From: Halobium salinum
Lineage (GTDB): Archaea; Halobacteriota; Halobacteria; Halobacteriales; Haloferacaceae
Direction: 5' to 3'
Assembly: GCF_026586625.1 (NCBI RefSeq)
Contig: NZ_JAODIW010000008.1
Span: 390,382 to 454,381, forward strand
DNA: 64,000 nt
The notes under the pieces were generated by a model. The model was not told where the DNA came from, ran no database searches, and worked only from the letters and a program-made list of their open reading frames with translations. Positions 21,627 to 34,728 of this stretch are shown here, in pieces. Position numbers and translations under genes: made by a program. The first letter of the stretch is position 1; every line of letters starts with the position of its first letter.

Positions 21627-22400
21627 ATGGTAGACCCCGACACCCAGCGCGAGGCCGTCGTCGCCGCCGTCGAGGCGGTGGCCGAGCGGATGGCCGAGGA
21701 ACGCCGATACCTGACCGACCTCGACTCCGCCATCGGCGACGCCGACCACGGGGGCAACGTCACCCGCGGGTTCGAGGCGGCCGCAGAACAGGTCGCGGAG
21801 GCTGCCGAGGCGGACGACGACGCGACTCCGGCCGACCTCGTCAAGCGCGTCGGCCGCGCGCTCATCTCGGAGGTCGGCGGCGCCTCCGGCCCGCTGTACG
21901 GCGGGTCGATTATGAGCGCCAGCGCCGAACTCGACGGGGGTATCACCGCCGAGACGACCGTCGCGTTCGCGGAGGCGTACCTCGACAAGCTCCAGGAGCG
22001 CGGAAAGGCCGAACTCGGCTCGAAGACGATGGTCGACGCCGTCACGCCCGCCGTCCACACCTACAAGAAGTCCATCGAGCAGGACGACCTCCCGCCGCTC
22101 TCTGCGCTCGCGAAGGCCGTCGACGCCGCCGAGCGCGGGGTGCGCTTCACCACGCCGCTCCGGGCGAAGAAGGGCCGCGCCTCCTACCTCGGCTGGCGCT
22201 CCGTGGGGCATCAGGACCCCGGCGCGACGAGCACGCTGTTCGTCCTCGAGGAACTGCTCTCCGTCGCCGACGACTACCTCGAGGGCGACGTCGAGCGCGA
22301 CGCCACGTCGCCGACGGTGCCCGACGCGGACCCCGAGGAGGCGGCGGACGACGAGGGAGCAGGCGGCGCGGACGGACCGGACGCCGGAGGCGACGACTGA
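21627..22400 (+). CDS. dhaL: dihydroxyacetone kinase subunit DhaL
   Basis: 257 residues. The nucleotide-binding signature LDSAIGDADHGGNV (near residue 32) holds the Asp/His ligands for Mg-ADP, and GGASGPLYGG and SKTMVDAVTPAV follow in the family order. DhaL carries a tightly bound ADP that acts as a phosphoryl carrier between DhaM and DhaK-bound dihydroxyacetone. Residues past about 215 are an acidic Asp/Glu/Gly tail, an extension typical of halophiles and absent from the E. coli protein. Its stop overlaps the dhaM start (TGATGG), so the two are translationally coupled. Confidence 0.95.
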   Translation: MVDPDTQREAVVAAVEAVAERMAEERRYLTDLDSAIGDADHGGNVTRGFEAAAEQVAEAAEADDDATPADLVKRVGRALISEVGGASGPLYGGSIMSASAELDGGITAETTVAFAEAYLDKLQERGKAELGSKTMVDAVTPAVHTYKKSIEQDDLPPLSALAKAVDAAERGVRFTTPLRAKKGRASYLGWRSVGHQDPGATSTLFVLEELLSVADDYLEGDVERDATSPTVPDADPEEAADDEGAGGADGPDAGGDD

Positions 22401-22822
22401 TGGTCGGACTCGTCGTCGTCACTCACAGCGCGAAGGTGGCCGAAGGGGTCGCCGACACCGCGGCGCAGATGGGCGGCGAGGGTCGCGTGGTTCCGGCGGG
22501 CGGCGACCCCGACGGGGGGCTGGGCACCGACGTGGACCGCATCGAGGCGGCGATTCGGGAGTCCTACGAGGCGAACGTGGACGCCGACGCCGAGTCCGAG
22601 GCGGACGGCGTGGTCGTCCTCGTCGACCTCGGGAGCGCCGTCATGAGTGCCGAGACCGCGGCCGACGTCGTCGAGGTGGACGGCATCGAGGTCGCGTTCG
22701 CCGACGCGCCGGTCGTCGAGGGGACCGTCGAGGCCGCCGTCGAGGCGACGAGTCCGAAAGCGACCCTCGACTCGGTCGTCGAGCGGGCCGAGGGGGCGCG
22801 GGAGTACCGAAAGTTCGGCTGA
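22400..22822 (+). CDS. dhaM: PTS phosphocarrier DhaM (EIIA-mannose-like domain only)
   Basis: 140 residues: VGLVVVTHSAKVAEGVAD has the phosphorylatable His9, and VVLVDLGSAVMSAETAADVV is the second conserved strand-loop. E. coli DhaM carries HPr- and EI-like domains as well; here only the EIIA domain exists. This agrees with the separate ptsH and ptsI genes at 25.7-26.0 kb supplying the phosphate. DhaM passes phosphate from HPr to ADP on DhaL. It overlaps dhaL by one base and ends with an EYRKFG tail. Confidence 0.93.
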   Translation: MVGLVVVTHSAKVAEGVADTAAQMGGEGRVVPAGGDPDGGLGTDVDRIEAAIRESYEANVDADAESEADGVVVLVDLGSAVMSAETAADVVEVDGIEVAFADAPVVEGTVEAAVEATSPKATLDSVVERAEGAREYRKFG

Positions 22823-22929
22823 GTTACCGGTTCGAATGGTCGAACGCCCGGAGAGTCGGTCAGAATATCCGGATTCGGTACCGGCGGCGAACCGTGTGGC
22901 ATAAACGTGTGAGTCGTTGCGTGCCGGTA

Positions 22930-23562
22930 ATGATTATCTGTGAGTTCACGCTCGACTCGCCTATCCTCGCGGAGGCCCTGAGTCGATGTCCCGCCGCCGA
23001 ACTCTCCATCGAGTCACAGAACGCTCTCGGCGACGGCACCGTCCAGCTCCAAGTCTGGGGCGAGGGTGTCGAACACGAGGCGTTCGGGGCGGCACTCGAG
23101 GCGGACCCGACCACCGCGGACGGGCGGCTCCTGTTCGACGGGCCCGAGCGGTGGTACTACGACGTTCGATACAGCCACGAGGCGGCCGAGTGGTCCGTCT
23201 ACGATACGTGGGCGGACCTCGGGGGACAACTGCTCGCCTCGACCGGGTCGAGCGACGGCTGGGAGCTTCGGATGCGCTTTCCCGACCGGGCGTTCGCCCG
23301 GTTCTACGAGACCTGTGAGGAACGCGGACTCGACATCGAGATTCGGACGATATACGGCAGTGTCTCGGACGACGGCGACGGGTTCGGCCTCACCGAGTGC
23401 CAGCGGGAGGCGCTCTCGACGGCCCACGAGCAGGGGTACTTCGACGTGCCGCGGGGAACCTCGCTCGACGAACTCGCCGCGGAACTCGGCGTCAGCGACA
23501 CCGCCGTCTCGCAGCGGCTCCGACGCGGCGTCGACCGGATGCTCGACCGCTCCGTCCTCTGA
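22930..23562 (+). CDS. Bat-type helix-turn-helix regulator next to the dha genes
   Basis: 210 residues starting MIICEFTLDSPILAEAL, a typical start for this haloarchaeal family. A sensor-like alpha/beta region of about 150 residues precedes an HTH_10 domain (FGLTECQREALSTAHEQGYF, then LGVSDTAVSQRLRRGVD). A likely role is control of the dha-pts genes around it, by position only. An upstream in-frame start would add 12 residues lacking family similarity, so ATG 22930 was chosen. It is related to the protein at 151-924, sharing the FGLT...GYFD(I/V)PR(S/G) core. Confidence 0.75.
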   Translation: MIICEFTLDSPILAEALSRCPAAELSIESQNALGDGTVQLQVWGEGVEHEAFGAALEADPTTADGRLLFDGPERWYYDVRYSHEAAEWSVYDTWADLGGQLLASTGSSDGWELRMRFPDRAFARFYETCEERGLDIEIRTIYGSVSDDGDGFGLTECQREALSTAHEQGYFDVPRGTSLDELAAELGVSDTAVSQRLRRGVDRMLDRSVL

Positions 23563-23638
23563 TTCGCGGCCCGAAACAGCGACGACGGGGGTCGACGCGC
23601 ACGCCAACCGTTTTACACGTCCCGTGCGAGTCGACGGT

Positions 23639-23947
23639 GTGTCCTCCAGAAACGCCATCGGCGTCGCCCCGCTGGTCACCGGACTCGTGCTCGTGAGTCA
23701 GTCGTTCGGAGCGCTCACCGGCGGCGACTCGACCCTGTGGGTGGTTTCGAGCGTCGTCGGCGGCTGTGCGGCGGCTCTCGTCGGCGTCGGGATTCTGTTC
23801 GGGTGGGGCGAGTTCGACCCCGAGTCGGGCGAGGCAGACGAGTCCGAGTCCGGCGGGACGGGCGAGATGGGCAGGCCGGTGCCGCTCGCACTCGCGGGCG
23901 TCGCCCTCTGTGCGTTCCTCGCCGGCGCGGCGGTGACCGTCCTGTAG
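23639..23947 (+). CDS. small two-helix membrane protein
   Basis: 102 residues, GTG start. Helices are near residues 8-27 (GVAPLVTGLVLVSQSFGAL), 35-54 (VVSSVVGGCAAALVGVGILF) and 80-101 (PLALAGVALCAFLAGAAVTV), with an acidic loop (FDPESGEADESESGGTGEMG) between the last two. The start is supported by CCGTTTTACACG about 26 bases upstream, a good leaderless promoter. It converges with ptsI with only 4 bases between stops. No family recognised. Confidence 0.65.
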   Translation: MSSRNAIGVAPLVTGLVLVSQSFGALTGGDSTLWVVSSVVGGCAAALVGVGILFGWGEFDPESGEADESESGGTGEMGRPVPLALAGVALCAFLAGAAVTVL

Positions 23948-23951
23948 CGCC

Positions 23952-25748
23952 TCACTCCTCGGGCAATCCCAGCGTCTCGCGAACCTCCCGCCGTGTCTCC
24001 GCCGCCAGCGCCCGCTCCGCGGTCTCGGCCGCCGCCGCCGACTCCAGGTCGGCGACGCGGGCCTTCACGTCCGGCACCGTCACGGCGCCCATGCTCAACT
24101 CGTCGACGCCGAGACCCACCAGGAGCTCGGTCAGCTGTGGGTCGCCGGCCATCTCGCCGCAGACGCCCACCCAGGCGTCGCCCGCGTGGGCGCCCTCGAC
24201 GGTTCGGGCGAGCGCCCGCAGGACGGCCGGGTACAGCGGGTCCCGGAGGTCGTCCATCGCGTCCACGTCGCGGCTGGCGGCCATCACGTACTGTGCGAGG
24301 TCGTTCGTCCCGACCGAGAGGAAGTCGACGCGGTCGGCGAGCCGGTCGGCCGTGAGCGCCGCCGCCGGCGTCTCCACCATGGCGCCGAGTTCGGGGCGGG
24401 CGTAGTCGACCCCCTCGTCGTCGAGGTCGGCGGCGACCGACTCGACCCGCTCCAGGGCCGCGTCCAACTCCTCCACGGAGCGCACGAGGGGGAACATAAC
24501 CGCGAGGTCCGCGCTCTCGGGGTCGGCGGCGACCCGCCCGGCCGCGCGGAGCAACGCCCGCAACTGCGTCTCGAAGAGGTCGGCGTGGGCGCCCAGCGAC
24601 AGTCTGATTCCGCGCTCGCCGAGGAATCCGTTCTCGACGGGGTCCAGGTCCATGTACGGCACGTCCTTGTCGCCGCCCACGTCGAGCGTACGGACGACGA
24701 CCCGGTCGCCGGCCCCGCCGTCGGCCGCACTCCCGCCCGAGAACGCCTCGCAGGCGACGACGTACGCCTCGTACTGTTCGTCCTCGTCGGGCGGGGAGTC
24801 GCGGTCGAGAAAGAGGAACTCCGTGCGGTAGAGCCCGACGCCGTCGGCGCCGCGGTCGGCCGCCGCCTCGGCCTCGGCGGCGTTGCCGACGTTGGCTGCG
24901 ACCTCGATTTCCTTCCCGTCGGTCGTCTGCACGCGCTCGTGGCGCACCGGCGCCGACTCGTCGGCTTCGGCGGCCGCGCGCGTCTCCGCGCTCGGGTTCA
25001 GGACGACGACGCCGGCCTCGCCGTCGACGACCACCTCGCTCCCCGCCGCGACCGATTCGAGGTCGTCGCCGACGCCGACGACGGCCGGCAGGCCGAGCGA
25101 CCGCGCGATGATGGCCGCGTGGGCCGTCCGACCGCCCGTCATCGTCGCGAGTCCGGCCACCCGGTCGGGGTCGAGACGCACGGTGTCGCTCGGCGTGAGT
25201 CGCTCGGCGAGCAGGACCGTGCCTTCGGGCAGGGCGCCGAGGTCGGTCCGCTCGACGCCCAGCAGGTGCCGGAGGAGCCGGTCGCGAACGTCGCGGAGGT
25301 CGTCGGCGCGCTCCGCCATCCGGCCCTCCATCCCCTCGAACGTCTCGATGTGGGTCGCGAACGCCTCGCGGACGGCGAACTCCGCGGGGAGCCCCTCATC
25401 GGTGGCGTCCTCGACCCCCGATTCGACCTGCGGGTCGGTGAGGAACCCGACGTGGGCGTCGAGGACGTCGGCCTCGTCGTCGCCGACGGTCGCCCGCGCA
25501 CGTTCGGCCTCGGCTTCGAGTTCCTCGCGGGCCGCCGCGACGGCCTCGTGGAACCGCTCGCGCTCCGCGACCGGGTCGACGGTGTCGGGCTCTGGCGGGT
25601 CGCCGAGGTCGAGGGCGGCATCCGGTCGGTGCCAGACGACCGTCCCGACGCCCGACCGGGGCGTGACGCCGGTGCCGGAGAGTCGGCGTTCGCCAGTGTC
25701 CGAGTCGGGGTCGGACTCGGCGTCCGGACCGGAGCCGGCGTCAGCCAT
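23952..25748 (-). CDS. ptsI: PTS enzyme I (phosphoenolpyruvate-protein phosphotransferase)
   Basis: 598 residues. The active-site histidine is His210 in MTGGRTAHAAIIARSLGLPA. The C-terminal PEP-binding barrel shows YRTEFLFLDRD, VVRTLDVGGDKD, LGERGIRLSL, GAMVETPAAAL, LSVGTNDLAQY and the catalytic VCGEMAGDP. The enzyme moves phosphate from PEP to its own histidine and then to HPr, in the cytoplasm. An N-terminal 30-residue acidic extension precedes the conserved TPRSGVGTVVW. It overlaps ptsH by 8 bases. With dhaKLM nearby on the other strand it completes the dihydroxyacetone phosphorylation route. Confidence 0.95.
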   Translation of the reverse strand: MADAGSGPDAESDPDSDTGERRLSGTGVTPRSGVGTVVWHRPDAALDLGDPPEPDTVDPVAERERFHEAVAAAREELEAEAERARATVGDDEADVLDAHVGFLTDPQVESGVEDATDEGLPAEFAVREAFATHIETFEGMEGRMAERADDLRDVRDRLLRHLLGVERTDLGALPEGTVLLAERLTPSDTVRLDPDRVAGLATMTGGRTAHAAIIARSLGLPAVVGVGDDLESVAAGSEVVVDGEAGVVVLNPSAETRAAAEADESAPVRHERVQTTDGKEIEVAANVGNAAEAEAAADRGADGVGLYRTEFLFLDRDSPPDEDEQYEAYVVACEAFSGGSAADGGAGDRVVVRTLDVGGDKDVPYMDLDPVENGFLGERGIRLSLGAHADLFETQLRALLRAAGRVAADPESADLAVMFPLVRSVEELDAALERVESVAADLDDEGVDYARPELGAMVETPAAALTADRLADRVDFLSVGTNDLAQYVMAASRDVDAMDDLRDPLYPAVLRALARTVEGAHAGDAWVGVCGEMAGDPQLTELLVGLGVDELSMGAVTVPDVKARVADLESAAAAETAERALAAETRREVRETLGLPEE

Positions 25749-26019
25749 CCGCGTCCTCCTCCACCGGCGAGGAGAGTAACGATTCGAGGGCGTCGAGTGC
25801 GGCCTCGGCGTCCTCCCCGTCGGCGATAATCAGCACGTCCTCGCCGCCGCGCACGTCCAGCCCGGTGACGGCGAGCATGCTGTTCGCGGGGACGGTGTTC
25901 CCGTCGCCGGCGCGGCCGACGCGAACCTCGCTGTCGTACTCGTTGGCGGTCGAGACGAACTTCGAGGCGGGGCGGGCGTGGAGCCCCTCCTCCGGGACGA
26001 CGGTGACGACGCGTTCCAT
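25741..26019 (-). CDS. ptsH: PTS phosphocarrier HPr
   Basis: 92 residues. The start MERVVTVVPEEGLHARPASK contains the phosphorylated His14 in GLHARPA. NSMLAVTGLDVRGGEDVLI corresponds to the regulatory-serine helix and following strand of HPr. An upstream in-frame ATG would add 32 residues with no HPr counterpart. HPr carries phosphate from enzyme I to DhaM and possibly to sugar permeases encoded elsewhere. The stop overlaps the ptsI start by 8 bases, so the two are made together. Confidence 0.93.
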   Translation of the reverse strand: MERVVTVVPEEGLHARPASKFVSTANEYDSEVRVGRAGDGNTVPANSMLAVTGLDVRGGEDVLIIADGEDAEAALDALESLLSSPVEEDADG

Positions 26020-26967: not shown

Positions 26968-27525
26968 TCAGTCCACGATGGGCTCGAAGTACCGGACGAC
27001 CCGCTTCCTGACCGCGGCGTAGACGACGCCGACGGCTATCGTTCCTAGTGCGACCAACCGGACCGGCCCCTCGAAGACGACGAGCGCGGGCGCCGTGAGG
27101 AGGACGGTGAGCAACAGGTCTTCGGGGGCACCGTCGTAACGAATCACGTACCGCGCCCGGAGCCACCTCCCGCAGGCGTGACAGTAGACCGCGTTCGGGT
27201 TCGTGCGCTCCCACGGCCGGAGTTCCTCGCCCGCGCCGAGGACGTCGCTCGCGGCGTGGGTCGCGGCGGTGAGACAGGCGACCGCCAGCCCGACCGTCGC
27301 CGGACCGGGCGCGACGAGCGCGAGCGGGACGGCGACGAGGACCGGAATCCAACCCAGCACGGGGAAGTGCAGGGTCTTCCGGTGCTCCCCGGCGAAGAGG
27401 TCGAGGTCCGGGAAGACCCCGCCGAGCACGCCGCCGGCCGCCGCGGCGGTGACGAGCGCCGGGTCGACGGCAGCCACGGCGGCGGCGACCGCCAGTCCCG
27501 TCGCGACGTGCGTCGGGCTCATCAT
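26968..27525 (-). CDS. YdjM/DUF457-type membrane-bound metal-dependent hydrolase
   Basis: 185 residues. MSPTHVATGLAVAAAVAAV has the N-terminal membrane-bound His, and GGVFPDLDLFAGEHRKTLHF carries the Asp and His ligands of the LexA-binding/YdjM putative hydrolase family. A third conserved piece, TAATHAASDVLGAGEEL, follows. Later comes a CHACG cysteine pair that is not usual for the family. C-terminal helices anchor it in the membrane. The gene is last in a minus-strand run led by the oxidoreductase fusion at 33 kb and lies 41 bases after the methyltransferase gene. Its substrate is unknown for the whole family. Confidence 0.75.
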   Translation of the reverse strand: MMSPTHVATGLAVAAAVAAVDPALVTAAAAGGVLGGVFPDLDLFAGEHRKTLHFPVLGWIPVLVAVPLALVAPGPATVGLAVACLTAATHAASDVLGAGEELRPWERTNPNAVYCHACGRWLRARYVIRYDGAPEDLLLTVLLTAPALVVFEGPVRLVALGTIAVGVVYAAVRKRVVRYFEPIVD

Positions 27526-27565
27526 CGCGGCGTCCTCCCGGTCGGGAGCGTTCGACCGTCCATCG

Positions 27566-28489
27566 TCAGTCCGGTGCCCGGTAGAGGAGGTCGTACTGGT
27601 GGGCCACGTAGGTCAACTCGGCGTCCGCGAGTTGGCGGCGGCGGGTCGCGAGCCAGTCGTCGGCGTCGTCGCCACCGTCGTCGGCGCCGTCACCGTCGTC
27701 GGCGGGAGCCAGCACGTCGGCGTCGCCGCCGCCGACCGCGTCGGCGACGAAGTCGAGGATACGACCGAGGAAGTGGCGCTCGTCGGCCGGGTACGCGCCG
27801 TCGACCGGACGGACGACCCAGTCGGAGGCGCCGACCGCGAGGAGGTCGGCGTCGCGCTCCCGGAGGCGGTCGAGCAGGTGTCTGCCGGCGCGGCTGTCCC
27901 GACCGGGAACGTCGTCGATGTGGGCGTGGTAGGCGTCGAGCACCGCGTCGTCGGCCGGGTGCTCCGGCGCGAAGAGGGAGACGCCGTCGAAGGTTATCGG
28001 CAGGTAGGCCAGGCCACTGGGTCGGAGCGCCCGCTCGACGGCGTCCATCGCGGGGCCGAGCGGGACGAGGTCGAACACGGCCTGTGCGACGAGGAGGTCC
28101 GCCGTACCGGCCTCGACGGGGAGGTCCTCGTCGAGGAGGTCGCCGACGGCGAACGACACGTCGAGGTCGCCGACACGGAAGCCGCCGAGAGCGTCGTCGT
28201 GGCCTGTCGGGTTGTCCGACCCGACCGAGTACGACCCGTCGAGTTCGTCGGGGAGCGTCGCCAGTGCGTACCGGAGCACCCCCTCGTCGCGGTCGACGCC
28301 GCGGTAGGTGCCGGCGTCGACACCCCACTCCAGCAGGGTCGGGACGAACGACCCGGTGCCGGCGCCCACCTCGGCTACGTCGGGTCGTGAAGGGAGGTCG
28401 GCGAGCAGGCGGTCGCGGACCCGCCGATTCCGGGCGCGGGCGTCGACCGTCCGCTTGCTCTCCAGGTAGCGGGCGTCGGCGTGGTCCAC
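27566..28489 (-). CDS. class I SAM-dependent methyltransferase
   Basis: 307 residues. Motif I is DVAEVGAGTGSFVPTL, the acidic post-I residue lies in YRGVDRDEGVLRYAL, and DLLVAQAVFDLVPLGPAMDA and GLAYLPITFDGVSLFAP fit motifs II and III. A roughly 50-residue insertion with VGSDNPTGHDDALGG lies between. It starts 7 bases after the stop of the pterin-synthase-like gene and so belongs to the same transcript. The ligand cannot be read from sequence; the context suggests a small molecule made by this cluster. Confidence 0.75.
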   Translation of the reverse strand: MDHADARYLESKRTVDARARNRRVRDRLLADLPSRPDVAEVGAGTGSFVPTLLEWGVDAGTYRGVDRDEGVLRYALATLPDELDGSYSVGSDNPTGHDDALGGFRVGDLDVSFAVGDLLDEDLPVEAGTADLLVAQAVFDLVPLGPAMDAVERALRPSGLAYLPITFDGVSLFAPEHPADDAVLDAYHAHIDDVPGRDSRAGRHLLDRLRERDADLLAVGASDWVVRPVDGAYPADERHFLGRILDFVADAVGGGDADVLAPADDGDGADDGGDDADDWLATRRRQLADAELTYVAHQYDLLYRAPD

Positions 28490-28496
28490 CCCCGAC

Positions 28497-28874
28497 TCAG
28501 AGCTCCCGGCGGTGGCTCGCCCAGGCGTCGTCGTCCTCCCACATCCGAACCGTCAACTCGGTCGGGACGTCGGTCGGGACCCGGTCCTCGACCCGGTCGG
28601 CGAAGTGGCGCGCGAAGCGCTCGACGCTCGGGTTCTGGCCCTCGAACTCCGGCAGGTCGTTGAGAAGCGTGTCGCGGTAGCGGTCGTCGAGCGCGTCGAG
28701 CGCGTCGTCCACGGCGTCGATGTCGACCAGGTAGCCGTACTCGTCGAGTTCCGGCCCCGAGAAGCGCACCTCCGCGCGGTACCGGTGGCTGTGTACCTCC
28801 CCCTCCGGACCGGGGTCGGGGACGGTCAGGAAGTGCTGGGCGACGAAGTCTCGGCCGACCGACAGCGAGTACAT
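28497..28874 (-). CDS. 6-pyruvoyl-tetrahydropterin synthase/QueD-like protein lacking the catalytic cysteine
   Basis: 125 residues, the usual family length. Zinc ligands are visible: His14 in FVAQHFL and the pair in EVHSHRY. The C-terminal FEGQNPSVERFARHFADRV fits the conserved Asn-Pro-(Thr/Ser) region. QueD and PTPS enzymes have Cys-x3-His-Gly-His. Here a glutamate stands four residues before the first His and the middle Gly is Ser, so the lyase chemistry of QueD is doubtful. Its neighbours are not queC or queE. Start at ATG 28874; the longer frame upstream is proline/arginine-rich. Probably an altered pterin-type enzyme. Confidence 0.78.
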   Translation of the reverse strand: MYSLSVGRDFVAQHFLTVPDPGPEGEVHSHRYRAEVRFSGPELDEYGYLVDIDAVDDALDALDDRYRDTLLNDLPEFEGQNPSVERFARHFADRVEDRVPTDVPTELTVRMWEDDDAWASHRREL

Positions 28875-29047
28875 GTGACGTGGGTAGGAGGCGACGAGCA
28901 AAACGTCACGGGTCGGTCTCTGATATTGTTTCGCCACGGGTCGCCGAGGTGGTCTCGTCTCTCTCGGAATGAGCCCCACCCGATGCCGGCCGTCCGGCCG
29001 GTCGTCGGTCGCTCTCCGTCCGGTGAGACCCTTCTCGAGGGCGTCCG

Positions 29048-30079
29048 TCAGTCGTACGTGAACAGGACTCCGAGCGCGTCGGTCGCGCCGTCGTCGAGCA
29101 GGTCGTACGCCCGGGGCGCCTCCTCGAAAGGGATTCGGTGGGTGACGAGTCCGGCGGGGTCGAGGTCGCACAGGCGGTCCCACGCCACGCCGAGTCGGCG
29201 CTCCTTCGTCCACCGGCCGCGGAGAGCGGGGTCAATGGTCGACACCTGACTGGAGACGAGCGAGACCCGACTCCGGTGGAAGCGCCCGCCGAGGTCGACC
29301 GGCGCCCGCTTCCGGCCGTACCAGGAGCCGACGACGACTCGCCCGTCGTAGCCGACGTGGGTCACGGCGTCGTCCAGCGTCGCGGGCGACCCGCTCAGTT
29401 CGAGGACGGCGTCCGCGTCGCCGTCGAGCGTCTCCCGGGCGTCGGCGGGCGACACCGTCTCGTCGGCGCCGACCGCACGAGCACGTCCCCGGCGGCTCTC
29501 CAGCGGGTCGACGACCGTCAGCCGCGAGAGGGGGAACCGAGCCAGGAGGGCGGTCGTCAAGAGGCCGACGACGCCCGCCCCGAGGACGACGACGCGCTCC
29601 CCGAGCCGGGGGTTGGCGTCGTGGACGAGGTTCACCGCGGTTTCGACGTTCGGGAGGAACGTCGCCGCCTCGACCCCGACGCCCTCGGGAAGCGGGTGGA
29701 GCGACGCCGGGTCGGCGACGAAGCGCGTCTCGTGGGGGTTGAACGCGAACACGCGCCGACCGGCCCACTCCGTCTCGACCGCCTCGCCGACGGCGGCAAC
29801 CTCGCCGACGGCCGCGTACCCGTACCGGAGCGGGAAGGAGAGGTCGCCCGCGAGCGCGTCGATGGTCTCGTCGGCCGGGAGGTCCGTCGGCGCGTTCCCC
29901 CGGTAGACGAGCAGTTCGGTGCCGGCGCTCACGAGCGACGCTCGCGTCTCGACCAGCACCTCGTCGGGTCCCGGGTCGGGCACCGCCCGGTCCTCGACGC
30001 GCGCCGCCCGCGGGCCGACGAAGTACAGCGAGCGTCCTGTCGTGCGGTCCACACGTGTCGGTTGGGACCGACGACGCAT
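29048..30079 (-). CDS. medium-chain dehydrogenase without canonical zinc ligands
   Basis: 343 residues. The N-terminal catalytic fold has SLVSAGTELLVYRGNAPTD where alcohol dehydrogenases carry Cys-Gly-Thr-Asp, and FPLRYGYAAVGEVAAVGEAV replaces the GHE zinc loop. The Rossmann part is GERVVVLGAGVVGLLTTALL with DPLESRRGRARAVGADE. This subgroup resembles BchC-type and other zinc-free members. ATG 30079 overlaps the upstream stop codon (a GTG at 30082 is also in frame). It is coupled to the CDP-alcohol phosphatidyltransferase gene. A 173-base gap separates it from the pterin-type gene. Substrate probably a secondary alcohol on a cluster intermediate. Confidence 0.8.
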   Translation of the reverse strand: MRRRSQPTRVDRTTGRSLYFVGPRAARVEDRAVPDPGPDEVLVETRASLVSAGTELLVYRGNAPTDLPADETIDALAGDLSFPLRYGYAAVGEVAAVGEAVETEWAGRRVFAFNPHETRFVADPASLHPLPEGVGVEAATFLPNVETAVNLVHDANPRLGERVVVLGAGVVGLLTTALLARFPLSRLTVVDPLESRRGRARAVGADETVSPADARETLDGDADAVLELSGSPATLDDAVTHVGYDGRVVVGSWYGRKRAPVDLGGRFHRSRVSLVSSQVSTIDPALRGRWTKERRLGVAWDRLCDLDPAGLVTHRIPFEEAPRAYDLLDDGATDALGVLFTYD

Positions 30080-30975
30080 CACTCTTCACCCGACCCGTCG
30101 GCGGCGACTGCGCCGGCGTCGGTGTCGGTGACGGCGACGGTGTCGTCCCCGCTGTCTTCCCCGGTGCAACCCTCGTCAGTCGAATCGGAGCGACCCTCGT
30201 CAGTCGAGCCGGACGACGACAGCCGTCCGGAGACGACGAGCCAGTCCCGTCCGAAGACGAGGAGCGAGGGCACCATCGCGACCGTCGCCAGCGCCGTTGC
30301 GGCGCTCCGGGGGAGCACCGGCAGCAGCGCGGCGGTGATGACGGCCATCTGCAGGGCGGCGAGCGGCCGCCGGACCCGACTCTCCGGGAGCGGCGCGACG
30401 GGTCGGCCCCGGTGGCGACGGTAGGCCTCGCCCGCCCGGAACAGGTAACGGGCGACGGCGAGCGCGAGATACCAGACGGGGAGTCGGCCCCAGGCGACCC
30501 CGACGAGCGGGACGACGAGGAAGCCGAGCGTGTCGAACGCGAGGTCGAGTTTCGCGCCGAGCACCGACCGCCGGCCCGTCCGCCTCGCGACCCAGCCGTC
30601 GACGAAGTCGAGCGCGGCGCCGGCGCCGTAGCAGAGCCCCGGGAGCCACCGGATTCCGACGACCGGCGGGACGAGGAGGAAGCCGCCGGCGACGGCGTAC
30701 AGCATCCCCCGCACGAGCGTCACGGCGTTCGCCGGGCCGAGGGACGCCCGAACCGGCCCGTCGCGGCCGCCGTTCCGGTCCAGGTGCCGACGGAGAAAGT
30801 CCAACTCGTAGACGAGCACGCCGCCGGCGACGAACAGCCACGCCCGGCCGGCGGCCGCGCCCGCGACGTCGCCGACGACACGGTTCCCGACGACTGCGAC
30901 CAGGAGCGCGACGAGGCCGACGACGACCCACTCGGCCCGGAGCCTGACGCCGACGACGCGCGTCTCGCCGTTCAT
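30079..30975 (-). CDS. CDP-alcohol phosphatidyltransferase family membrane protein
   Basis: 298 residues with several membrane helices. The family signature D-x2-DG-x2-AR-x8-G-x3-D-x3-D is complete: DFVDGWVARRTGRRSVLGAK followed by LDLAFD. Such enzymes displace CMP from a CDP-linked alcohol onto an acceptor alcohol within the membrane. The C-terminal 60 residues are a Ser/Asp/Thr-rich acidic tail with STDEGRSDSTDEG repeats. The stop overlaps the next gene's start, and its own start overlaps the previous stop by 4 bases. Acceptor and donor are unknown; the core phospholipid enzymes usually sit elsewhere. Confidence 0.85.
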   Translation of the reverse strand: MNGETRVVGVRLRAEWVVVGLVALLVAVVGNRVVGDVAGAAAGRAWLFVAGGVLVYELDFLRRHLDRNGGRDGPVRASLGPANAVTLVRGMLYAVAGGFLLVPPVVGIRWLPGLCYGAGAALDFVDGWVARRTGRRSVLGAKLDLAFDTLGFLVVPLVGVAWGRLPVWYLALAVARYLFRAGEAYRRHRGRPVAPLPESRVRRPLAALQMAVITAALLPVLPRSAATALATVAMVPSLLVFGRDWLVVSGRLSSSGSTDEGRSDSTDEGCTGEDSGDDTVAVTDTDAGAVAADGSGEE

Positions 30976-33038
30976 CGGTCGAACTCCGGGTCCGCGAGGG
31001 CGTCGACGCGCGCCCGTTCGTCGGCCGTGAGGCGAATCCCGGCCGCGGCGGCGTTCTCAACGACGTGCTCGGCGTCGACGCTCGACGGGATGGGGACGAC
31101 GCCGCGCCCGACGTTCCACGCGAGGACCACCTGTGCGGGGGTCGCGTCGTGGGCGGCCGCCACCTCGGCGAGGACCGGTTCGTCGAGCAGGTCCGGCGCC
31201 GACAGCGGCGAGTGCGCCACGACGCGAATCCCGCGCTCGTGGCAGTACTCGACCAGGTCGGTCCGGGGCAGGTACGGGTGACTCTCGACCTGTACGACCG
31301 CGGGCGGGACTCGTGTCGCCTCCAGCAGGTCGGCGAGCGTCGCCCGGTCGACGTTGCAGACGCCGAGCGTCCGTGCGAGTCCGTCGTCGTGGAGTGACTC
31401 CATCCGGGTCCACGTCTCGACCAGCGTGGTGTCCGCCGTCCGGCGGTTACCGTCCTCGTCCGTCGGAAACGTCCGGGCCTCCTGTTCCTCGACCGGACGG
31501 TCGGCGAGTTCGCCGAGCGGCCCGGTGTACGCCCACGACGCCGGCCAGTGGAGGGCGTAGCAGTCGAACGCGTCGACGCCGAGTCGGCGGAGGCTGGCCT
31601 CGCAGGCCTCGCGAACGTGCTCGTGGTTCGTGTTCCACACCTTCCCGAGAAGGAAGAGCGCCTCGCGGGCGGGGCTCCCCGGCGCGTCGAGCACGTCGCC
31701 GATTCGCCGCTCGTTCCCGTACAGTTCCGCCGAGTCGAGCAGACGGTAGCCGGCGTCGAGCGCGACTTCGACCGACTCGGCCCGCTCGACGTACTCGCCG
31801 TCCCGGTAGCGCGAGCAGCCGAAACCGACCGGCGGGAGGCGGAGCGCGGCGCGGTCGGCGGGGTCGGCGGGGTCGGTGTAGTCGGTACGGTCAGCGCGCG
31901 CCCCCGTCGTCGACTCCCCGACCGACTCGGACCACCTCGTCGGCGCCGGCACCCCTTCGGGGACGAACCCACAGTCGCCGACGGCGACGGGTCCACCCGA
32001 TTCTGCGGCGCGCTCGATGGCGTTGCAGACGGCGACGACGTGGGCCCCGCGCCGGGCCGAGGCGGTCGACGGCCGACCCGCTCGAATCGAGTCGGCGAGC
32101 GACGCCAGGCCGGCGAGGGGCGGGGTCGTCCGCGGCGGGCGCTGGAGGGGGACCGGGGTGTACCCGCGGCCGGCGCGGCCGAACGCGACGCCGGTGTCGC
32201 GCTCGCCGCCGAGGCCGCCGGCATCGGCGAGGTAACAGGAGCCGTCGTCGCCGTGGAGTTCGAGACCGTAGAACTCCCGGCCCCGGTGCGGAACGTAGAG
32301 GCTCGCCGTCAGGCGGACGAACGGCCCGCCGGCGAGGTCGAGCGTCGCCTCCACGTGGGTCGGGCGGTCGGGGGCGGCGGGGTCGACCTCGGCTCGGCCC
32401 GGATACCGGGTCAGCGTGTCGGCCGACCGGACCCGCGTCACGGGGCCGAACCACTCGGCGAGGAGGGTGAGCGGGTACACCGCGCCGTCGTACAGCGGCC
32501 CGACGGCTAGGAAAGAGTCGGGCCGCTCGTGCCACTCGGTGACGCGCCCGACGTGCGCCGTCGCAGTCGCGACCCCGACGGCGCCGAGGCTCCCGTCGGC
32601 GACCCGGCCGGCGGCGAGGCGCTGGCCCTCGCCGCGGTGGTTCGTCGGCGCACAGCCGAGGCCGAGACCCTCCGACTCGGCGAGTCGCACGAGGGCGCGC
32701 GCCTCCTCTGCGTCGAGTGCGAGCGGCTTCTCGCTGTAGACGCTCGCGCCGGCGTCGAGGCAGGTCCGCGTGACCGCCGCGTGGGCGCCGTGGCTCGTGA
32801 GGTTGAGCACAAGTTCGGGGCCGGCGTCGTCCAGCATCGCCGCCGCGTCGTCGTACCCCGAACAGCCGTACTCGGCGGCGAAGGCGGCCGCTCGGTCGAC
32901 GTCGCGGTCGGCGGCGGCGACGAGTCGGAGGTCGTGCGCCCGCCCGAAGTCGCCGTCCGGTTCCGGACCCCCGTCGGTTCCGAAACCGGCCGCGTAGCGC
33001 GACGCGACCGCTCCACAGCCCACCAGTCCCACGTCCAT
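30972..33038 (-). CDS. Gfo/Idh/MocA dehydrogenase fused to aldo/keto reductase
   Basis: 688 residues in two enzymes. Residues 1-350 are a Gfo/Idh/MocA NAD(P)-dependent dehydrogenase: VGLVGCGAVASRYAAGF, then SVYSEKPLALDAEEA with the family Glu-Lys-Pro. Residues about 400-688 are an aldo/keto reductase: GYRLLDSAELYGNE supplies Asp and Tyr, LFLLGKVWNTNHEHV the Lys and CYALHWPASW the His of the tetrad. An acidic linker (GARADRTDYTDPADPADRA) joins them. The two folds are rarely one protein. It heads the operon, with a CCTTTTTGTTC element about 26 bases upstream. Consecutive oxidation and reduction on one sugar-like substrate is a fair guess. Confidence 0.85.
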   Translation of the reverse strand: MDVGLVGCGAVASRYAAGFGTDGGPEPDGDFGRAHDLRLVAAADRDVDRAAAFAAEYGCSGYDDAAAMLDDAGPELVLNLTSHGAHAAVTRTCLDAGASVYSEKPLALDAEEARALVRLAESEGLGLGCAPTNHRGEGQRLAAGRVADGSLGAVGVATATAHVGRVTEWHERPDSFLAVGPLYDGAVYPLTLLAEWFGPVTRVRSADTLTRYPGRAEVDPAAPDRPTHVEATLDLAGGPFVRLTASLYVPHRGREFYGLELHGDDGSCYLADAGGLGGERDTGVAFGRAGRGYTPVPLQRPPRTTPPLAGLASLADSIRAGRPSTASARRGAHVVAVCNAIERAAESGGPVAVGDCGFVPEGVPAPTRWSESVGESTTGARADRTDYTDPADPADRAALRLPPVGFGCSRYRDGEYVERAESVEVALDAGYRLLDSAELYGNERRIGDVLDAPGSPAREALFLLGKVWNTNHEHVREACEASLRRLGVDAFDCYALHWPASWAYTGPLGELADRPVEEQEARTFPTDEDGNRRTADTTLVETWTRMESLHDDGLARTLGVCNVDRATLADLLEATRVPPAVVQVESHPYLPRTDLVEYCHERGIRVVAHSPLSAPDLLDEPVLAEVAAAHDATPAQVVLAWNVGRGVVPIPSSVDAEHVVENAAAAGIRLTADERARVDALADPEFDR

Positions 33039-33146
33039 GGTGGGTCGCAGGACCGTGTGAACAAAAAGGCACGTCCCGCGGTAACGTGGGGCGACTCCCG
33101 CTCACGGGAGCGCCACGGTCTTGCCGCCGCCGCGACAACTGCGTTC

Positions 33147-34292
33147 ATGGCTCGCGTCGCCGTCCTCCACAACACGCTCGACCTGCGCGGCGGGGCCGAC
33201 GCCGTCTGTCTCCACGTCTGTGCGGCGCTCCGTGCCGACCACGAGGTGACCCTCTACACCCTCTCGCGGGCGTCGCCGCGGGCGCTCGGGCGGTTCTTCG
33301 GCGTCGAGGTCGGCGCGGACCTCCGGGTGCGGACGCCGCGCGGGACGACCCTCTTGAACCGCGGGCTCGACGCCGTCGCCGACCGAGTCGGGCCACAGCT
33401 TCCGGCCCGGAGCGTCCTCCTCGACCGATTCTTCCGGCGCGAGGCCGGCCGGTACGACCTCGCGGTGAGCACCGCCAACGAGTTCGCGCTCCCGCTCCCC
33501 TCGGTGCAGTACGTCCACTACCCGCAGTTCCGGCTCCGGCGAATCGGCGAGGGGGGCCGGTTCAACCCGCTCTGGACGCGGCTCGCGGGCGTCGACCGGC
33601 TGGCGGCGGGCAACGGTTCGAACTCCGGTCCCGGGTCGGAGTCGCCGCCGACGACCCTGCTCGCGAACTCCGCGTGGACCGCCGGGGTCGTCGAGCGCCT
33701 GTACGGTCGGCGGCCGGCGGTGCTCCACCCGCCCGTGGACCCGATTTCGGACCCGCTTCCGTGGGGGGAGCGCGAGTTGGGAGTCGTCACCGTCGGTCGG
33801 TTGGCCCCCGACAAGCGGCCGCTCACCGCCGTGCGCATCGTCGAGGGCGTCCGCGAACGCGGTCACGACCTCCACCTGCACGTCGTCGGCTCCGCGAGCC
33901 CGACCTACCGGGAGTACACCCGTCGCGTCCGGCGGGCGGCGGCCGAGCGCGACTGGGTCCACCTCGAGGAGGAGGCCTCCCGCGACCGGCTCGACGACCT
34001 CCTGCGCCGGCACCGCTACGGTCTCGCGGCGAAGCCGGACGAGCACTTCGGCATGGCCGTCGCCGAGTACGTCGCCGCCGGGATGGTCGCGTTCGCCCCC
34101 GACTCGGGCGGGCAGGTCGACGTGCTCGACGGTCGACCCGAGCGGCTGTTCGGCTCCGTCTCGGCGGCGGTCGACCGGGTCGCGACAGCCGTCGAGCGCG
34201 ACGACCGCCCGTCGCTCCCGCGGGACCGCTTCGACCGCGAGCGGTTCCACCGGGCGGTGCGCGACCGCGTCGTCGACACCCTCCGGCGGTAG
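33147..34292 (+). CDS. GT4 family glycosyltransferase
   Basis: 381 residues of the GT-B fold. The N terminus reads MARVAVLHNTLDLRGGADAV (nucleotide-free Rossmann domain) and the C-terminal domain opens with LGVVTVGRLAPDKRPLTAV. The donor-binding EHFGMAVAEYVAAGMVAFAP has the Glu-x7-Glu motif of GT4 retaining enzymes. There is no signal peptide, so it acts in the cytoplasm or at the inner membrane face. It is transcribed divergently from the fusion dehydrogenase and shares a 108-base promoter region with it, suggesting joint regulation. The acceptor could be the product of the pterin-type cluster. Confidence 0.85.
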   Translation: MARVAVLHNTLDLRGGADAVCLHVCAALRADHEVTLYTLSRASPRALGRFFGVEVGADLRVRTPRGTTLLNRGLDAVADRVGPQLPARSVLLDRFFRREAGRYDLAVSTANEFALPLPSVQYVHYPQFRLRRIGEGGRFNPLWTRLAGVDRLAAGNGSNSGPGSESPPTTLLANSAWTAGVVERLYGRRPAVLHPPVDPISDPLPWGERELGVVTVGRLAPDKRPLTAVRIVEGVRERGHDLHLHVVGSASPTYREYTRRVRRAAAERDWVHLEEEASRDRLDDLLRRHRYGLAAKPDEHFGMAVAEYVAAGMVAFAPDSGGQVDVLDGRPERLFGSVSAAVDRVATAVERDDRPSLPRDRFDRERFHRAVRDRVVDTLRR

Positions 34293-34353: not shown

Positions 34354-34728
34354 ATGAGCACCGCAGGTGCCACGGAGAGCGGGGTCGGACTCCGGACGGA
34401 GACGCTGACGCCGCTCCACTGGGCCGGCATCGCACTCGCCGCCATCTCGGGGGTCATCCACCTCTGGCTCGGCGTCTCCTTCTTCCCGTCGCCGTTCGGG
34501 GTGGCCTTCCTCGTCGCCGCAATCGGCTTCTTCGCCGGTATCGCCGGCGTGCTCGTCGACGTCCGTCGCCGGGCGCTGTACGCGCTCGGGGTGCCGTTCA
34601 CCGCCGGGCAGATAGTTATCTGGTACGCCGTCAACGGGCTGAAACTCGCGCCGGTCGACCTCGTCGACAAGGTGGCCCAACTCGCACTCGTCGCCGTCCT
34701 GCTCGTCCTCTACAGTCGGTCCTCCTGA
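34354..34728 (+). CDS. small polytopic membrane protein (DUF7475-like)
   Basis: 124 residues with four hydrophobic helices (WAGIALAAISGVIHLWLGV, GVAFLVAAIGFFAGIAGVLV, LYALGVPFTAGQIVIWYAV, VAQLALVAVLLVLYS). It fits short haloarchaeal membrane proteins filed as DUF7475, a name from memory. The start ATG was chosen because the preceding 17 codons look non-coding and include a TAGTTTCAAG element at promoter distance. That element is the second of two near-identical 15-base copies (34288-34302 and 34318-34332). Function unknown. Confidence 0.65.
   Translation: MSTAGATESGVGLRTETLTPLHWAGIALAAISGVIHLWLGVSFFPSPFGVAFLVAAIGFFAGIAGVLVDVRRRALYALGVPFTAGQIVIWYAVNGLKLAPVDLVDKVAQLALVAVLLVLYSRSS

Follow-up and report, generated by a model that had tools for sequence, protein, structure and literature searches.

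A cluster of genes in the haloarchaeon Halobium salinum, built around a PTPS-like protein, appears on balance to be the haloarchaeal version of a cassette, found across domains, for a modified, glycosylated pteridine (pterin-type) metabolite. The cluster lies in a stretch of 64,000 nucleotides (contig NZ_JAODIW010000008.1, positions 390,382 to 454,381), which we call the window. Its gene set is conserved among haloarchaea and is probably biosynthetic, and related sets in Actinomycetota and Proteobacteria make it a cassette shared between domains. The genes concerned, in window coordinates, are as follows.

30972..33038, minus strand, Gfo/Idh/MocA protein (Gfo; residues 2-353; PF01408/PF22725) fused to an aldo/keto reductase (AKR; residues 404-682; PF00248), 688 aa
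30079..30975, minus strand, CDP-alcohol phosphotransferase, a membrane protein of 298 aa (PF01066, 57 bits)
29048..30082, minus strand, zinc-less medium-chain dehydrogenase (MDR), BchC-like (PF00107/PF08240); core gene
28497..28874, minus strand, PTPS-like T-fold protein, 125 aa, motif ExxxHSH (PF01242); core gene
27566..28489, minus strand, S-adenosylmethionine-dependent methyltransferase (MT), 307 aa (PF08241/PF13649); core gene
26968..27525, minus strand, YdjM-like membrane protein (PF04307, under the cut-off); membership doubtful
33147..34292, plus strand, GT4 glycosyltransferase (GT), EX7E intact (PF00534); divergent from the operon
34354..34728, plus strand, DUF7475 small membrane protein (PF24287); a frequent partner of the set, beyond the range of the original prediction

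Composition of the cluster

The original prediction, which was made from the letters of the sequence, had described a minus-strand cluster with a divergent GT4 gene, and Pfam and motif checks found all of the genes it named to be real, with the position and orientation given there. The Gfo/AKR fusion gene probably heads the operon. It overlaps the CDP-alcohol phosphotransferase gene by 4 bp, and the same overlap is seen between the latter and the MDR gene; a gap of 173 bp separates the MDR gene from the PTPS-like gene, which is spaced 7 bp from the MT gene. The GT4 gene stands 108 bp from the divergent operon, with the DUF7475 gene downstream of it.

Both the EKP motif and the AKR tetrad of the Gfo/AKR fusion are intact, and the CDP-alcohol phosphotransferase carries the full motif DFVDGWVARRTGRRSVLGAKLDLAFD, a complete D..DG..AR(8)G...D...D pattern in agreement with the family signature D..DG..AR(8-9)G...D...D. 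The MT signature is also intact (EVGAGTG), and comparison of the MT model with the PDB returned only generic class-I methyltransferases. Because the sole Cys of the MDR is residue 305, neither the catalytic nor the structural zinc-ligand set is present; the protein is zinc-less, as had been predicted, and an identity as a zinc-dependent alcohol dehydrogenase was rejected. The top NCBIfam profile for the MDR was bchC, with a score far under the cut-off. The YdjM-like gene was rejected as a core member, as it adjoins the PTPS-like gene at just two further loci of one genus (1 of 37 genera).

Family placement of the PTPS-like protein

With a PF01242 score of 99.2 bits against a cut-off of 22.4, the PTPS-like protein is a member of the PTPS family (COG0720). 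The top Foldseek matches of its AlphaFold2 model (pLDDT 96) were PTPS/QueD folds without exception, and the nearest PDB entry by both fold and sequence was SCO6650 of Streptomyces coelicolor (3d7j; TM 0.88, compared with approximately 0.78 for E. coli QueD). The predicted replacements of the catalytic Cys by Glu and of HGH by HSH proved correct on alignment (PEGEVHSH, that is, ExxxHSH), and the Asp-His dyad is replaced too, the dyad position reading RD rather than DH. The Cys-Asp-His triad is thus lost, while the zinc ligands His14, His28, and His30 and the pterin-anchoring Glu113 are retained. Of 63 aligned haloarchaeal orthologues, 61 have Glu at the Cys position; the three zinc His are retained in 62, 59, and 62, the dyad is replaced, and the pterin-anchoring Glu is retained wherever it can be aligned; this Glu is kept across all haloarchaeal and bacterial groups compared. 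An orthologue is present in 115 of 195 haloarchaeal genomes (59%).

The T-fold and the zinc histidines are shared with QueD (PTPS-I), the enzyme of archaeosine and queuosine synthesis, but the window protein has neither the CxxxHGH triad nor the Asp-His dyad, lacks queC and queE neighbors, and belongs to a separate clade. In a tree of 67 rows, built on the few columns of a short protein and not including PTPS-II/III rows, the haloarchaeal PTPS-like group was supported at 100/100, and the haloarchaeal and bacterial cassette proteins together split from the QueD proteins of both domains at 97/93; the QueD rows include the E. coli and P. aeruginosa chains, and rows L211 and L071 were left out. 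The TIGR03367 (QueD) profile gave the window protein 45 bits against a cut-off of 89. The original prediction had described queC and queE as absent from the window; QueE indeed had no match within it, QueD gave chance matches only, and a canonical queD (CSRPHGH) followed by queE and queC lies on another contig (C11) of the same genome. Given this complete set elsewhere and the position outside the QueD clade, the PTPS-like protein is, as judged from its sequence, not QueD. NCBI labels the homologues 6-carboxytetrahydropterin synthase, which would suit a second QueD for archaeosine or another deazapurine route, but with the canonical genes on contig C11, the separate clade, and the lost QueD motif, such a role is barely credible.

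The other named subfamilies were also compared. PTPS-II was rejected on its motif, CxxxxxHGH (PMC5445326, PMC5041015), which is not matched. PTPS-III, the folate-related form of Plasmodium and archaea, resembles the window protein in having Glu near the catalytic Cys position, and Plasmodium PTPS is also among the Foldseek matches; however, the PTPS-III motif ExxHGH is missing from PEGEVHSH, and this assignment was rejected as well. A folate or methanopterin step, whether PTPS-III-like or as a replacement of dihydroneopterin aldolase, is highly improbable for a protein that occurs in just 59% of haloarchaeal genomes and has GT, MT, and CDP-alcohol phosphotransferase genes, not folate genes, as the neighbors seen.

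The window protein sits beside PTPS-IV, a named subfamily without published function. In the tree, proteins of the SCO6650 type group with the window protein and apart from QueD; they have likewise lost the triad and kept the pterin-anchoring Glu, and their partners are also MDR, GT, MT, and CDP-alcohol phosphotransferase. The haloarchaeal protein differs in keeping the three zinc His (HSH versus HGA in SCO6650), in having Glu rather than Ala at the Cys position, and in reading PGPEG at the site of the FGPAQ signature after which PTPS-IV was named; its clusters have GTP cyclohydrolase (GCH) III in place of GCH II, and Gfo-AKR and DUF7475 in addition. A network study gave PF00925 and RibD_C as neighbors of PTPS-IV and labeled PF00925 GTP cyclohydrolase I/FolE2 (PMC5445326). 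Since the Pfam name of PF00925 is GTP cyclohydrolase II, the folate hint published for PTPS-IV looks like a misreading. This neighborhood (GCH II, PF00925, with RibD_C, PF01872) is found in bacteria; the window cassette has neither a GCH nor a RibD_C gene.

A 2016 paper assigned PTPS-IV to coenzyme F420 synthesis on the basis of unpublished work (PMC5041015), and haloarchaea do encode CofD. However, CofD is present in 194 of the 195 haloarchaeal genomes as against 115 for the PTPS-like protein, so the latter is not generally needed for haloarchaeal F420 and an essential role there is ruled out. Nor did the cassette show any cof gene, and the known F420 route has no place for a GT, an MT, or a CDP-alcohol phosphotransferase; we regard a function in F420 synthesis as distinctly improbable.

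Conservation among haloarchaea

Gene neighborhoods were compared at 60 loci from related haloarchaeal genomes of 37 genera and 9 families, counting partner genes within 7 kb of the PTPS-like gene. MDR was found at 55 loci (34 of the 37 genera), MT at 50 (29 genera), CDP-alcohol phosphotransferase at 39 (24 genera), DUF7475 at 37 (23 genera), GCH III at 20 (16 genera), Gfo at 16, and AKR at 15 (11 genera each). The window-type GT occurs at 13 of the loci and another GT4, mostly located between the PTPS-like and MT genes, at 37 loci of 26 genera; no locus has both (Fisher p 2e-7), as if the two substituted for each other by non-orthologous exchange. When 14 QueD loci of the same class were queried with the cassette genes as a control, 0 matches were obtained at E 1e-5, which rules out chance clustering, and the varying gene order indicates that the set is more than the shared descent of one chromosome segment. 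Of the two outcomes that the original prediction had held against itself, then, neither a chance grouping of the genes nor a place of the PTPS homologue within the QueD clade was found. DUF7475, a family without an assigned function, gains a predicted role through its co-occurrence with the cassette.

In many organisms the cassette lies on a megaplasmid or plasmid; it is therefore accessory, and transfer from host to host is probable.

Counterparts in bacteria

Among 80 PTPS-IV loci of Streptomyces, genes for MDR, GT, and CDP-alcohol phosphotransferase are each present at 79, MT at 77, an LPG-type membrane protein at 75, and GCH II and creatininase at 73 each. The arrangement is CDP-alcohol phosphotransferase / MDR-PTPS-GT4-MT-LPG-type membrane protein / creatininase / GTP cyclohydrolase II. 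MDR-PTPS accompanied by GT4 and/or MT occurs on plasmids of Methylosinus, Thiodictyon, Neorhizobium, Rhizobium, Palleronia, a Rhodobacteraceae strain, Arthrobacter, and Microbacterium; most of these proteobacterial, Arthrobacter, and Microbacterium cassettes include RibD_C, and some have GCH II, CDP-alcohol phosphotransferase, LPG-type, or cytochrome b561 genes. The order RibD_C-MDR-PTPS-GT was found in further Actinomycetota genomes. The parts are homologous between domains: the haloarchaeal and Streptomyces cassette MDRs share 38% identity over 325 aa (E 8e-48), and the MTs of haloarchaeal and bacterial cassettes can be aligned and have distinctive N- and C-terminal motifs in common. Some Streptomyces PTPS-IV homologues (L191, L153) are solitary, with no MDR, GT, or other cassette genes. 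Cytochrome b561-type genes (L187, 11528-12085; L189, 12026-12565) adjoin RibD_C in one gammaproteobacterial and one alphaproteobacterial cassette.

GT4, CDP-alcohol phosphotransferase, Gfo/AKR, PAP2, and LPG-type proteins are common in surface-lipid clusters, and the triad of the PTPS-like protein is lost. The cluster might then serve the synthesis of a polysaccharide or a lipid head group, with the PTPS-like gene as a mere passenger or as the source of a non-enzymatic binding protein. However, it is MDR that adjoins PTPS at nearly every locus in both domains, whereas the sugar and lipid genes vary; the recruitment of GCH III or GCH II/RibD_C indicates a GTP-derived substrate, and no group has lost the pterin-anchoring Glu. 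We therefore consider this explanation improbable.

GTP cyclohydrolase genes and the riboflavin connection

The recurring extra genes of the cassette belong to families that open the GTP ring for riboflavin synthesis, GCH II in bacteria and, in haloarchaea, GCH III, which is unrelated but catalyzes a related reaction; they represent a second non-orthologous exchange. A second GCH III copy elsewhere was found in 9 of the 20 sampled genomes with a cassette GCH III versus 0 of the 39 without (Fisher p 1.3e-5, a value that ignores relatedness). In Haloarcula sp. GH36, a plasmid GCH III gene stands between the CDP-alcohol phosphotransferase and MDR genes. The window genome has a single GCH III, on contig C2, which the cassette would therefore share with riboflavin synthesis. 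Creatininase-family genes lie near 2 of the 60 haloarchaeal loci; for BrbF, which belongs to this family, deformylation of the GTP-derived intermediate made by GCH III has been proven (PMC9478397). The GCH III/II, RibD_C, and creatininase neighbors strengthen the tie of the cassette to GTP-derived pteridine chemistry.

The families that open the riboflavin pathway (ArfA/GCH III, GCH II, BrbF/creatininase, and RibD_C; PMC9478397) are thus represented within or next to the cassette, in some cases by a second copy. As RibD_C (PF01872) and GCH II of the bacterial versions and GCH III of the haloarchaea are genuine riboflavin-pathway families, the product could be a ribityl-pyrimidine, lumazine, or flavin-type compound; RibD_C would then reduce the ribosyl group to a ribityl group, and this branch would be where the T-fold protein and MDR act. 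Nevertheless, the later riboflavin genes were not seen, with no ribB, ribH, or ribE-type gene among the annotated plasmid neighborhoods; the scanned RibD proteins match the reductase domain only, with no deaminase; GT, MT, MDR, and CDP-alcohol phosphotransferase are foreign to the riboflavin route; and the conserved Glu of the T-fold protein is a pterin anchor. Such a product is rather unlikely in our judgment.

Proposed pathway

For the pteridine cassette we infer the following route, including its substrates, order of steps, product, and lipid link. GCH III (archaea) or GCH II (bacteria) would ring-open GTP to a formamido- or diaminopyrimidine ribosyl phosphate, the normal feed of riboflavin synthesis; the supplier would be the contig C2 enzyme in the window genome and the cassette copy in other haloarchaea that have one. 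The PTPS-like protein, with its pterin anchor and zinc site and no triad, may then close or rearrange this intermediate to a dihydropteridine. GCH I likewise has the T-fold, and the second half of its reaction is the closure of a diaminopyrimidine ribosyl phosphate to a dihydropterin; by this analogy, we suggest that the PTPS-like protein acts on the GCH III/II intermediate or a derivative of it. The zinc-less MDR would set the redox state of the ring, side chain, or sugar, possibly with the help of RibD_C in the bacterial cassettes or of Gfo/AKR in the haloarchaeal ones, and GT4 and the MT would glycosylate and methylate the product. Finally, the CDP-alcohol phosphotransferase may attach a phosphodiester-linked group, possibly an archaetidyl lipid. 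Since CDP-alcohol phosphotransferases normally transfer a CDP-activated lipid or alcohol to an acceptor hydroxyl, a lipid-linked product is possible. The original prediction had proposed a pterin- or sugar-containing molecule attached to a membrane alcohol; given the conserved, probably biosynthetic set and the strengthened tie to GTP and pteridines, a pterin- and sugar-containing product is a reasonable idea that is now better supported, while its pterin nature is deduced from the genes and attachment to a lipid is a possibility. A more specific version, in which the route starting at GCH II/III and ending at the CDP-alcohol phosphotransferase yields a lipid-anchored, glycosylated, methylated reduced pterin that serves haloarchaea, Actinomycetota, and Proteobacteria as a membrane redox cofactor or light absorber, is speculative and unlikely in so full a form; it would be in keeping with the genes for cytochrome b561 and LPG-type membrane proteins found next to some of the bacterial cassettes.

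Several observations weigh against a pteridine-forming cassette. The window cassette itself has no GCH III or RibD_C gene, GCH III is missing from the neighborhood at 40 of the 60 haloarchaeal loci, and ten loci lack a recognized GT nearby. The genes shared with the riboflavin pathway would equally fit a ribityl or flavin-type product, and the genomes counted are related rather than independent samples. In Haloarcula marismortui, moreover, the cassette PTPS gene reads as two fragments (pNG700 locus; L097, 9001-9312), which indicates that the pathway can be lost; an apparently identical genome yielded no intact PTPS-like copy, and the annotation of the pNG700 locus lists no PTPS feature. One further haloarchaeal PTPS-like copy (L058) is likewise split.

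Comparison with known systems and significance

The routes to pteridine glycosides in cyanobacteria and Chlorobium, with their pteridine glycosyltransferase (PMC5683033, PMC13259868), share the logic proposed here, a PTPS-family protein with a glycosyltransferase acting on the pteridine. The present cassette differs from them in a supply tied to GCH II/III instead of GCH I, in a PTPS protein without the triad, and in the additional methyl and CDP-alcohol transfer. In the open-licence literature, we found no paper on the cassette or its product. The claim of an undescribed pathway nevertheless holds in part only: the PTPS-like protein sits beside a subfamily that is already named and has a solved structure in SCO6650, and it is the function of this parent subfamily that is unpublished. 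The haloarchaeal form, with its ExxxHSH protein, GCH III, Gfo-AKR, and DUF7475, is new.

PTPS-IV, with a structure but no published function, thereby gains a functional frame, and the annotation 6-carboxytetrahydropterin synthase, which hundreds of such proteins carry, is contradicted by these data. The cassette also suggests that GTP can reach pteridines by a second path, one that leaves riboflavin synthesis and that archaea and bacteria enter through first enzymes that are not homologous. Unusual pterins, sulfohalopterin and phosphohalopterin, were reported from haloarchaea in the 1980s, and the cassette is a source of candidate genes for them. The question can be tested in a genetically tractable haloarchaeon.

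Neighboring genes

Adjoining the cluster, positions 21627-26019 of the window hold sugar phosphotransferase genes, for a Dak2-domain protein, EIIA-man, enzyme I, and HPr, with the gene of a Bat-type HTH_10 regulator lying between them. These genes probably constitute a dihydroxyacetone kinase phosphotransferase system.

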